Part shown: piece after piece, positions 22,780 through 56,362 of the stretch
How positions within the stretch are numbered: position 1 is the stretch's first letter
How the letters are laid out: every line of letters starts with the position of its first letter
Assembly (NCBI GenBank): GCA_036365515.1
Contig: CM070874.1
Coordinates: forward strand, 172,473,797-172,537,796
DNA from: Torymus aiolomorphi
Lineage: Eukaryota; Arthropoda; Insecta; Hymenoptera; Torymidae
DNA: 64,000 bases
Direction: 5' to 3'
Translations under genes and position numbers: made by a program
The notes under the pieces: generated by a model
The model's input: only the letters and a program-made list of their open reading frames with translations
Databases searched by the model: none
What the model was told of the DNA's origin: nothing

Positions 22780-23013
22780 CACATAATTATGCATCTGGCA
22801 TGTTTTGACGAGCTAGAAATATACGGAACGACTGTTTTGGCGAGTTTGTGACGCTTTTGACGAGCTCGCCAAAACAGCAAAGATACCGGAGACCACTTTT
22901 GGCGAGTTTTATTAATACCTCAGCCCCAGAGAGGGATATTATTTCTTTAGTCAAGCATACGAGTCCCTGATTGTAAAAACTCTAGCTCGCCAAAACGGTT
23001 CACCCACATACTT
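22780..23013. mobile_element. Iteron block 1 (motif TTTTGGCGAGCT)
   Basis: A noncoding block between simple repeats. The motif occurs direct at 22803-22814 and 22835-22846, as an overlapping direct/inverted pair at 22855-22874 (TTTTGACGAGCTCGCCAAAA), direct at 22897-22908, and inverted at 22984-22995. The core ATTATTTCTTTAGTCA is at 22938-22953, preceded by CCCAGAGAGGG. Blocks 3, 4, 5 and 6 have the same layout with different motifs. Confidence 0.85.
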
Positions 23014-23200
23014 GTGTGTGTGTGTGTGTGTGTGTGTGTGTGTGTGTGTGTGTGTGTGTGTGTGTGTGTGTGTGTGTGTGTGTGTGTGTGTGTGTGTGTG
23101 TGTGTGTGTGTGTGTGTGTGTGTGTGTGTGTGTGTGTGTGTGTGTGTGTGTGTGTGTGTGTGTGTATATATATATATATATATATGTATATATATATATA
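23014..23200. repeat. (TG)n-(TA)n microsatellite
   Basis: About 150 bp of TG followed by about 36 bp of TA. The long Cys-Val and Thr-His ORFs across it are artefacts of the repeat. Confidence 0.99.
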
Positions 23201-23320
23201 TGAAAAGTAAAACCGGCGTTTTGAATGCCGCATTCAAAACGTCAGTTGATTGCATTTTTAACATGGGAACATATAGAATCTATAGGAAGTTGCGCATTCA
23301 AAACACCAGATTTTCATACT
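23201..23320. mobile_element. Iteron block 2 (motif GCGTTTTGAATGC), reduced
   Basis: A TA-flanked block with a direct/inverted pair at 23216-23241 (GCGTTTTGAATGC, then GCATTCAAAACG) and one more inverted copy at 23294-23304. It has no ATTATTTCTTTAGTCA core. It is a shortened or diverged member of the block family. Confidence 0.55.
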
Positions 23321-23394
23321 TCTATATATATATATATATATATATATATATATATATATATATATATATATATATATATATATATATATATATA
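23321..23394. repeat. (TA)n microsatellite at the Helitron 1 3' end
   Basis: About 74 bp of TA. Helitron 1 ends CTAG directly against it. Confidence 0.98.
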
Positions 23395-23398
23395 CTAG

Positions 23399-24429
23399 GG
23401 GGTACCCCACGACTCGCTCCGCTCGTCAAACCCCATAAAAAATAAATTTAAAAATTTTATATTTTGGAATAAGAGAACAAATCACCCTGATGTTCATTAT
23501 TTTAAATTATTACACTTATTTTATTACTTATAAATTATTACTTATTTTATTACTTACTTTATAAATATTGAACAATGTTTTAAATTTAACCAATAACTGT
23601 GTTGCTTTAATTCGTTTCATATAAACTTTATTAACTATAAAGATTGGTTGAAGAGATGAACAGTTTTCCACGTCACCCTGGGGGTACTGTTCATGGACCG
23701 TTGGATTGTTATTTTAAATGGCATCCTTCGCCAATAGCCCTACATTACCACTATACCTAAAATTTTATGAAATTTTATTAAATATATTTTTATATCATTT
23801 ATATTACATTTTGAAATTTAGGAAAATAATAAACTAAAAATAAATTATATGATTTATATTATCTTTAATATACCCTTGAGTGTTTCTATAAGCTTTTTAT
23901 TATTTAAAACCATATATATTTATTTGTTCCTTTTATATATATTTTTGCTTTTAAACATTATATTGGATACATAAAAAAATCTAATATAATTTATTGTAAA
24001 TTATTTTAAAATTAATATAATTTTATTTTCCTTAAATTTCAAATATTCCATTTTCATACTTAATAATAATTTACTTAATAATAATTTTCTTTTATTTCAT
24101 TGAATTTTTATATTTATTACTTCTATTTAAAATTTACAAAAATATTTATAAAAAAATAATTATCAAATTTTTAATTAAATTTTCTTTAACATATCCTGTG
24201 ACGTTTTTGTAAGCTATTTATAATATGGAAATATATATTTTTATTTTTTCTGTTATGTATATTTTTGCTTATAAACATTATATTGGATACGTGAAAGAAG
24301 TTAATGTAAAATAATAGAATTAAAAATTAATATAACTTAATACTATTTTTGTGAAATTTCAAATATTTTATACTAAAAAATTGAGTTTAAATTGTATATT
24401 GAAAATATTATGTTTGCTTTTGATTTATT
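23399..24429 (-). other. Helitron 1 noncoding 3' region
   Basis: AT-rich sequence between the WDP ORF and the 3' hairpin. The part at about 23635-23750 is repeated in inverted orientation at about 36560-36675. Confidence 0.6.
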
Positions 24430-53150: not shown

Positions 53151-53214
53151 TCAATAGAGCGGAATACTGTGTAGGCTATTAATCCAACCGATACACTGTC
53201 TCATATAATGCGTC

Positions 53215-55700
53215 ATATGTGTGACACATTTTTCCAAAATATGTCATACGAGTGATACTTTTTCATAGATTGTGCCATAGGAGTGACTCCCTTTCATAAG
53301 AGGAGTGACGCTTTTTCATAGGAGGAGTAACAATTTTTCATAGAACGTGTCATAGGAGTGACACTTTTTCTTAGAATGTGTCATAGGAGTGACACTTTCG
53401 CATAGGAGGAGTAATACTTTTTCATATAATGTGTTATAGGAGTAACACATTTTCTAGAATGCCTCATAGGAGTAATACTTTTTCATAGGAGGAGTAGCGC
53501 TTTTCGCAAAATGTGTCATAGGAGTGACACTTTTTCATAGCAGGAGTAACACTGTTTCATAGGAGGAGTGACACCTTTTCATAGGAGAAGTAACACTTTT
53601 TCCCAAAATGTGTCATAGATTTTCATAGGGGAAGTGACGCTTTTTCATAGGAGGAGTAATGCTTTTTCATAGAAGGAGTAACACTTTTTCATAGGAGGAG
53701 TGACACTTTTTTCAGAGGAGGAGTAACACTTTTTCATAGAATGTGTCGTAGGAGTGACACTTTTTCGTAGAATGCATCATAGGAGTCACACTTTTTCATA
53801 GGATGGGTAGCACTTCTCGCAAAATGTGTCATAGGAGTGACACACACTCATAGGAGGAGTGACTCCTTATCATAGGAGGAGTAACCCTTCTTCATAAAAG
53901 AAGTGACACATTCTCACAGGAGGCGTAACACTATTTCATAGAATGTGTCATAGGAGTGTCACCATTTCATAGGGGGAGTGATGCTTTTTCATAGGAGTAA
54001 CATTTTTCCTAAATGTGTCATAGGAATTACACTTTTTGGTAGAATTTGCCATAGGAGTAAGACTGTTTGTGGAATGTCATAGGAGTGACACGTTTGAATA
54101 TGAGGTGCGAAACTTTTCCATAGGAGGAGTAACAGTTATTCATAGAATGTGTCATAGGAGTGACACCTTTTCATATGGGGAGTGACGCTTTTTCAAAGGA
54201 GGAGCAACCCTTTTAAATAGAATGTGTCATAGGAGTGACACTTTTTGTAGATTGCGTCATAGTTGTGACACTTTTCTATATGAGGAGTAACACTTTCATA
54301 GGAGGAGTAACACTTTTTCGTAGAATGTATCATAGGTGTGAAACCTTTTCATAGGAGGAGTAATAGTTTATCCTAAAATGTGTCATAAGAGTGACACTTT
54401 TTCGTCGAATGTGTCATAGTAGTGACACCTTTTCGTTGAATGTGTCATAGGAGTAACACTTTTTCATAAGAGGAGTAACACTTTTTCATAGAATGTGTCA
54501 TAGTGGTGACACCTTTTCATACGAGGAGTGACGCGCTTTCATAGTAGGAGTAACACTTTTTCCTAAAATGTGTTATAGGAGTAACACTTTTTTACAGGAG
54601 TGACTTTTTTTCATAGGAGGAGTGATACTTTTTTCATAGGAGGAGTAACACTTTTTGATAGAATGTGTCATATGTGTCACACTTTTTCGTAGAATGCATC
54701 ATAGGAGTGACACATTTTAATAGGAGTAACACTTTTTTGTAGAAGGAATATTGCTTTTCGCAAAATCTGTCATAGGTGTGACACTTTGTCATGGGAAGAA
54801 TGACATTTTTTCATTAGAGGAGTTACACTTTTTCATAAGAGGAGTAACACTTTTTCATAGGAGAAGCGACAATTTTTCTAAAAATGTGTCATAGGAGTGA
54901 CACTTTTCCATATGAGGAGTAACACTTTTTCATAGGAGGAGTAACACTTTTTCGTAGAATGTATCATAGGTGTGAAACCTTTTCATAGGAGGAGTAATAG
55001 TTTATCCTAAAATGTGTCATAAGAGTGACACTTTTTCGTCGAATGTGTCATAGTAGTGACTCCTTTTCGTTGAATGTGTCATAGGAGTAACACTTTTTCA
55101 TAACAGTTTTTCACAACACTTTTTCGTAGAATGCATCATAGGAGTGACACATTTTAATAGGAGTAACATTTTTTTGTAAAATGTGTCATAGAAGTGACAC
55201 TTTTTTGTAGAAGGAGTATTGCTTTTCGCAAAATCTGTCATAGGTGTGACACTTTTTCATGGGAAGAGTGACACTTTTCCATTGGAGGAGTTACACTTTT
55301 TCATAGGAGTAACACTTTTCCATAGGAGGAGCGACAATTTTTCTAAAAATGTGTCATAGGAGTGACACGTTTCCATATGAGGAGTGACACTTTCTCATAG
55401 GTGGAGTCACGCTTTTTCCCAAAATGTGTCATAGGATGGACCCTTTTCCATAGAAGGAGTGACAAATTTTCATAGGAAGTGTGATAGTTTTTCGTAGGAG
55501 GACGAATGCTTTTTCTCAAAATGTGTCATAGGAGTGACACTTTCTCATAGAATGTGTCATAGGAGTGACACTTTTTCATAGGAAGAGTAAGACTTGTTCA
55601 TAGAATATGTCATAGGAGTGACACATTTTTCCAAAATGTGTCATAGGGGTAACACTTTTTTATAGGAGGAATGACACTTTTTCGTAGAATGCGTCATACG
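53215..55700. repeat. Foldback right minisatellite array
   Basis: Inverse of the left array (GGAGTGACACTTTTTCATA, AATGTGTCATA), about twice as long. It contains a large internal duplication: about 54290-54480 recurs at about 54935-55105. Confidence 0.95.
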
Positions 55701-55850
55701 AGTAACGCTTTTTGACCAAGTGAGGAACGTTTGGCACTAAAGTTTTGTATTATCATAAGCATTGATTCCGAAAACGAGTATGTTAAAAAGTTCTGGTCGC
55801 CTGTTGATTGGAATAGACTATCAACCCCATGTCAAACTATTAGCAATAGT

Positions 55851-56023
55851 AATATATATATATATATATATATATATATATATATATATATATATATATA
55901 TATTTTTTTTCATATATATATATATATATATATATATATATATATATATATATATATATATATATATATATATATATATATATATATATATATATATATA
56001 TATATATATATATATATATATAT
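55851..56023. repeat. (TA)n microsatellite
   Basis: About 170 bp of TA broken once by TTTTTTTTCA near 55903-55912. Tyr-Ile ORFs across it are artefacts. Confidence 0.99.
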
Positions 56024-56362
56024 GTACGGTATTTTGAGGATTTCATAAAGAATTTGTACAATAGTGGTGACACAAATATAAACATTGTTATAAACAACCA
56101 ATAAACAAGCGCGTGACTAAAGAAATAATGACCCTAAGGTTATTGACTAACACCACGACGCCTGCGGCGCCCGCTTTTACGGAAAAATATCACCGAATTT
56201 CCGAAATCGATGTATTAACACACTATTGTGGAAACCGCTGAAAAATCCTCAAAATGCCTCTCGAGTGCTTTGGACTTTTGGGGAGACTCCTCAAAATGCC
56301 TACAAAATCCTCAAAATTCGGTATATATGACCTATATAATCCTCAAAATGCGTCCCAGATGT
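56024..56362. mobile_element. Iteron block 6 (motif GCATTTTGAGGAT), reverse orientation
   Basis: Read on the minus strand: direct motif at 56339-56351 and 56307-56317, direct/inverted pair at 56274-56299, direct at 56245-56257, core at 56114-56129 (plus strand TGACTAAAGAAATAAT), inverted motif at 56031-56041. The spacer between the last direct motif and the core is about 115 bp and includes a GC-rich GCGCCGCAGGCGTCGTGG-type patch. The core is preceded by AATAACCTTAGGGTC and followed by C. Confidence 0.85.

Follow-up and report, generated by a model that had tools for sequence, protein, structure and literature searches.

How do five short blocks of DNA come to share one invariant 16-bp core and one order of parts while each repeats a motif of its own? 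The question arises from a 64,000-nucleotide stretch of the genome of Torymus aiolomorphi (contig CM070874.1, positions 172,473,797 to 172,537,796 of the forward strand), which we call the window and whose first letter is position 1. Our analysis indicates that the blocks are probably non-autonomous miniature elements of the Mutator-like element (MULE) type, with repeated sites that would be read by an element-encoded protein, most likely the transposase of the respective family.

Five blocks of one architecture

The blocks are real: the core is exact in each of the five, and repeated motif copies lie where the original prediction, made from the letters of the window, had placed them. Their order, i.e., direct, direct, a direct and an inverted copy forming a palindrome, direct, core, inverted, was confirmed in all five. 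At up to three mismatches, the window holds seven core matches, five of them exact, against 2.16 expected, and none of 100 shuffles reached seven. All blocks adjoin simple repeats (TA, TG or CA; block 3 only short ones), as had been stated. The description of the sequence preceding the core has to be widened, since the two forms quoted for it do not suffice for a stretch that is more variable (CCCCAGGGTCC in block 4, AACCTGAGGATC in block 5). Three features had been overlooked. Distances from site to site are constant, relatives of the blocks carry target-site duplications, and near block 1 lies half of another family, whose full relatives are L036 and L037. The parts are as follows.

22780..23012, plus strand: block 1, family F1 (TTTTGGCGAGCT), element flanked by (TA)n and (TG)n
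22803..22814, plus strand: F1 site 1
22835..22846, plus strand: F1 site 2, 32 bp after site 1
22855..22866, plus strand: F1 site 3, 20 bp after site 2
22863..22874, minus strand: F1 site 4, inverted, forming a palindrome with site 3
22897..22908, plus strand: F1 site 5, 42 bp after site 3
22938..22953, plus strand: invariant core of block 1, ATTATTTCTTTAGTCA
22984..22995, minus strand: F1 site 6, inverted, close to the right end
23205..23310 (about), minus strand: one half of another family, without a core (TTTTGAATGC palindrome), resembling by eye the left half of L036/L037
36991..37218, plus strand: block 3, family F3 (CTTTGAGGATC)
37011, 37043, 37062, 37072 (minus), 37105 and 37191 (minus): starts of F3 sites 1 to 6
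37145..37160, plus strand: invariant core of block 3
48598..48831, plus strand: block 4, family F4 (TTTATGGAGCCC)
48614, 48645, 48664, 48676 (minus), 48704 and 48804 (minus): starts of F4 sites 1 to 6
48743..48758, plus strand: invariant core of block 4
48852..49090, plus strand: block 5, family F5 (TTTTGAGGAGA)
48870, 48902, 48921, 48930 (minus), 48964 and 49062 (minus): starts of F5 sites 1 to 6
49016..49031, plus strand: invariant core of block 5
56025..56363, minus strand: block 6, longer family F6 (TTTTGAGGATT)
56337-56348, 56305-56316, 56285-56296, 56276-56287 (inverted), 56243-56254 and 56032-56043: 12-bp F6 sites 1 to 6
56114..56129, minus strand: invariant core of block 6

When the window was scanned for sets of four 10-mers spaced as described below (at most three mismatches each), all five blocks were recovered, and the other hits look low-complexity, A+T-rich or minisatellite. 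Since the spacing grammar was partly derived from these blocks, the scan is not an independent test.

Copies of the core throughout the genome

The core occurs 12,541 times without mismatch in the assembly containing the window (1,084,570,280 bases, i.e., 1.08 Gb, in 21 contigs), with 6,341 and 6,200 occurrences on the two strands, compared to a single exact occurrence of a control word, the core read backwards. Copies were sampled from the first 100 listed core places, on contig C1 (0.13 to 6.32 Mb), 98 of which lay in the stretches fetched. Together, 97 distinct copies from C1 and the five window copies gave 102 distinct copies, a sample that stands for one chromosome region plus the window and is not a random draw. 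Single-linkage clustering at 75% identity over 150 bases resolved 26 clusters, and the number of motif families found is a lower bound for the genome.

Within 420/320 bp, dinucleotide microsatellites flank 64 of the 102 copies on both sides and 23 on one side, leaving 15 with none. Furthermore, neighboring copies are clustered, with 25 of 99 gaps shorter than 1 kb, where 1.6 would be expected. F7, F6 and F8 each have nearly identical copies at separate places, indicating recent spread. The earlier view of the blocks as small mobile elements is thus backed by the 12,541 cores, by near-identical copies at different places and by the target-site duplications of core-bearing relatives. At L035 (contig C1, 2098300-2101000), one core element is present in three tandem copies at 226-bp steps; the copies have no TA repeats between them, which points to spread by tandem duplication as well. 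Two further arrangements were seen: at L064, near 3020 on the minus strand, a core copy is followed by its own inverted copy in a hairpin-like double element, and in L020 and L054 one or two degenerate core-like words, one of them inverted, lie within about 60 bp after the exact core.

A spacing grammar around the core

Repeated 10-mers were searched de novo, using one representative of each cluster, cutting out the core and supplying no motif. In 14 of the 26 clusters, more sites were obtained than in any of 30 dinucleotide shuffles; L020 is among these on account of a TA-rich word other than its site, and for the second L002 cluster the bounds of the first were used. The layout was found, whole or in part, in representatives of 15 of the 26 clusters, among which the F8-like L007, L031 and L012 as well as L025 show it in part. 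These 15 account for 85 of the 102 copies, counted by cluster membership and not by a check of each copy. Core matches in the sample thus largely carry the layout that the original prediction expected of them.

The distances between sites follow a grammar of their own. Site 2 starts 31 to 33 bp after site 1 in 13 of 13 motif families, site 3 follows site 2 at 19 to 20 bp in 12 of 12, and site 5 follows site 3 at 40 to 43 bp in 10 of 11, with site 4 being the inverted partner of site 3. The exception is F8 (TTATGCAGAC), in which the next direct site after site 3 is found at 52 bp, past the core. The distance from site 5 to the core is less strict, namely, about 30 to 52 bp in the short families and 125 and 151 bp in the longer families F6 and F9, which have a G+C-rich stretch in between. 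Positions entering these counts were hand-picked from a register scan, with weak extra matches (mostly at three to four mismatches) dropped. Site 3 of L009, which the register scan had missed, was placed by hand, and the de novo run gave 32, 19 and 41 bp for this locus; L041 enters without site 5 and L037 without site 3, and F3 and L037 are two families out of one cluster.

Site sets switch between families

A set-wise change of the motif around a constant core is supported by the invariance of the core together with a comparison of sites within and between families. For 11 families, mean site identity was 0.857 within and 0.439 between families; when sites were shuffled among families the value was 0.478 (sd 0.019), and 0 of 2000 permutations reached 0.857. 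The motifs seem to form a single continuum, in which a T-rich half precedes a G-rich one. In seven family pairs, chosen by hand, sites were compared with the spacers between them. Sites exceeded spacers in identity in five pairs, clearly so in three (F4a/F4b, 0.85 versus 0.47; F10/F11, 0.85 versus 0.42; F3/F6, 0.85 versus 0.52) and to 0.71 versus 0.51 and 0.65 versus 0.31 in F5/F6 and F1/F3. Over all family pairs, mean spacer identity was close to chance (0.326 versus 0.307 shuffled, sd 0.012; 0.306 versus 0.300, sd 0.014).

Target-site duplications and element class

MULEs are marked by target-site duplications of 8 to 11 bp and by terminal inverted repeats (TIRs), the latter being absent in non-TIR MULEs. 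Four core-bearing kinds were located outside TA repeats (L050, L020, L032 and L059). Duplications of 9 bp are found in L020 (TATTTATTT) and L050 (AATTTTTAA), and L032 itself has one of 10 bp. Of the L032 kind, 40 copies were scored, and the 20-base flanks of ten of them were fetched: all ten further copies, at five distinct sites (six of the ten share one flank), show an exact 9-bp duplication. When flanks were swapped between distinct sites, none of 60 pairs reached 9 of 9 and four reached 8. L032, L020 and L050 have short inverted ends. L059 is a 350-bp element with a 9-bp duplication (CCTTTACAG) and arms that match at 108 of 120 positions; it bears one core per inverted arm, 47 bp from each end, which suggests that the core acts in the end complex and is less likely a regulatory site of the host. 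Inverted termini combined with duplications of 9 bp are in keeping with the Mutator superfamily.

The (TA)n families repeat only the sub-terminal site in inverse, and in L001, of the F4 cluster, the ends carry an 11-bp repeat that is itself TA-rich. They are linked to the 9-bp kinds by the core, by an AGGG-like stretch before the core in several of them, and by parts that follow a similar order, from the left sites over the core to the inverted right site.

Search for an autonomous partner

Domains of the MULE transposase are common in the genome: a search with PF10551 gave 150 scored matches, 20 of which lie in open frames of more than 500 amino acids with no stop in the match. The only named relative of one of the genome's MULE proteins comes from Trichomalopsis sarcophagae. 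In tblastn searches, eight MULE proteins had no hit at E 1e-3 in L001 to L070 or in the window, and no element-encoded gene or cognate protein was found in these searches. One candidate for an autonomous copy, L058, in which a right half of the F4b kind stands by unrelated sequence, was dropped; its neighbor reads by eye like a gene exon, and L058 is probably a truncated copy. The MULE families L074/L078, L075/L076/L077 and L081/L082 are young, with copies 98 to 99% identical and open reading frames (ORFs) of 550 to 810 amino acids; they have no core and are apparently other MULE lineages.

Objections and alternative explanations

Several observations weigh against reading the blocks as MULE-type elements with a reader of their own. 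No autonomous copy was found, and the 15 MULE loci of about 4.5 kb hold no core at fewer than three mismatches; the seven matches they have at three mismatches do not look like the core. With no autonomous copy or cognate protein found, recognition by a cognate transposase is something we only infer. The duplication cannot be read within (TA)n and is therefore shown for core-bearing relatives only, and none was seen at the ends of L002 or L054/L056. As to the grammar, 11 of the 26 clusters (17 of the 102 copies) are without it, partly through truncation, and the L002, L020/L032, L036 and L059 kinds have a different or shorter site set. Single copies deviate as well (L070 with 20, 20 and 42 bp; L031 with 32, 20 and 61 bp; L012 with 20, 53, 32 and 33 bp), and L023 and L007(-) show no clear spacing. 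Sites were no better kept than spacers in two of the seven pairs (F7/F9, 0.69 versus 0.68; F3/F5, 0.62 versus 0.62). The spacers of related families are above chance, and part of the constant spacing is therefore common descent. Finally, 19 bp correspond to 1.8 turns of DNA, and helical phasing is hence only approximate.

Even if the elements are of the MULE type, their sites might be read by an accessory or regulatory protein instead of the transposase, be it an anti-silencing factor like VANC of the VANDAL elements, a promoter-binding protein or a repressor. VANC proteins do bind short VANDAL motifs, the motifs of VANC21 and VANC6 differ, and the motifs evolve together. However, the sites described here are few, fixed in spacing and accompanied by a palindrome and by an inverted site near the other end, as expected of a protein that binds element ends, and the word "spacing" is absent from the main text of the VANC paper. 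We consider a regulatory reader unlikely. Iterons that change as a set beside an invariant core also recall Rep-dependent origins of replication, and the copies could accordingly be origins of a rolling-circle or plasmid-like element recombined into TA repeats. This is very improbable in view of the 9-bp duplications and inverted termini of core-bearing kinds. Furthermore, the longest stem across the core was no better than with shuffled flanks in 15 of 16 families, and AGGGNN plus core has no exact match in viral_contigs, on which ground a viral origin was rejected.

The microsatellite association of the copies would also suit Helitron-type or other microsatellite-borne elements such as DINE-1, mini-me and MINE, to the last two of which the original prediction had likened the blocks. 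Helitrons and DINE-1 insert without target-site duplication and have rolling-circle termini, whereas the core-bearing kinds show 9-bp duplications and inverted ends, and an array of sites plus a core is not known to have a counterpart in the definitions of DINE-1, mini-me and MINE. We regard such an origin as highly implausible, and the proposed kinship with mini-me or MINE is not supported; the (TA)n association and the 9-bp duplications instead suggest Mutator-like elements. The chance that the blocks are structured RNA genes, with sites as pairing arms and the core as loop, is close to negligible. Complementary CCCAGAG/CTCTGGG flanks can be seen by eye in some families, but only one of the 16 has a core-spanning stem that exceeds shuffled flanks (F4c, in which 2 of 200 shuffles reach it; 18 of 200 in the next best), and Rfam gave no match in the window at the gathering threshold. 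A structured RNA around the core was rejected on these two results.

Proposed mechanism and its meaning

We thus favor MULE-type miniature elements with an element-encoded reader and propose the following model. Judged by their anatomy, the 10- to 13-bp sites are putative binding sites of such a protein. The transposase or an element-encoded partner would assemble on the five left sites in one fixed geometry, with the sites spaced by roughly 3, 2 and 4 helical turns, and the protein on the left array would then meet the single inverted site at the right end. The reader of the core may be a component of the machinery or a host factor, in either case constant between families. If the DNA-binding domain shifted its specificity, all sites of a family would change together, and geometry and core would stay.

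Taken further, and only tentatively, it is conceivable that a single transposon chassis has been re-keyed many times in one genome, a constant part reading the core and a fast-changing part reading the private sites in one helical geometry, with the families as orthogonal address codes. If so, related transposons could coexist without mobilizing or titrating each other. In any case, this genome, with its thousands of core copies, provides a natural series of roughly a dozen site sets that share one chassis. The series makes testable how a DNA-binding transposase alters its recognition sequence and yet keeps its assembly geometry, and it lets one ask whether changes in recognition create orthogonal transposons.

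Other features of the window

Just right of block 5, at 49671-50971, lie ORFs resembling what we take to be a Penelope-like element, a reverse transcriptase followed by a GIY-YIG-like stretch. Minisatellite units of 22 and 31 bp (AGGAGTAACACTTTTTCATAG...) fill a 4-kb field at 51830-55711, in two opposite orientations that meet near 53.2 kb. Two ORFs in opposite orientation at 57073-60370 presumably encode transposases of a Tc1/IS630-like type; the pair is flanked by two 42-bp repeat arrays that seem to be inverted copies of each other.

Comparison with known systems

Microsatellite-targeting miniature inverted-repeat transposable elements (MITEs) of the MULE type are described in Medicago, rice, guayule and pineapple, and VANC binds private VANDAL motifs (PMC4486113, PMC5907723, PMC8449440, PMC5735166, PMC13359780). 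The blocks resemble Micron/rSaTar2 of rice, gSaTar of guayule, MuTAnT of Medicago and Ac-mMITE of pineapple in being short, non-autonomous and located in (TA)n or other microsatellites. Two traits of these plant elements, microsatellites on both sides and clustering, are shared by the present elements, and clusters are likewise reported from guayule and pineapple. Copies outside microsatellites have duplications of 10 bp in guayule and of 9/10 bp in pineapple; there they occur in copies of the same family. In the present elements, a 9-bp duplication was observed for core-sharing sister kinds alone. For Ac-mMITE, no autonomous copy was found either. The plant MITEs are defined by TIRs, and neither a spacing-fixed array of sites nor motif switching nor an invariant internal core is described for them in the parts available. 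In a 2026 survey of arthropod MULEs, the accessible text contains "microsatellite" once, in the title of a reference. The literature searched, which covered few subscription journals, gave no report of (TA)n-targeting MULE MITEs in animals or of a fixed spacing grammar with switching sites; the present elements would extend the plant phenomenon to animals.

The VANDAL/VANC system of Arabidopsis is similar in that the private short motifs of MULE families change together, there with cognate proteins that changed specificity. It differs in high-density arrays of one orientation, in changing copy number and in its anti-silencing role. We know of no shared core in VANDAL elements. The ends of phage Mu and Tn7 carry arrays of sites in a fixed arrangement, in Mu with a separate internal site, and are in this respect like the blocks; unlike them, they are single families that are not known to switch site sets within a genome. 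DINE-1, mini-me and MINE share the association with microsatellites, but they are not of the Mutator type and are not known to have a 9-bp duplication. In sum, the plant microsatellite-targeting MULE MITEs and the co-evolution of motifs in VANDAL/VANC are already known; what is new is that the sites switch as whole sets while the spacing grammar stays rigid and the core invariant.

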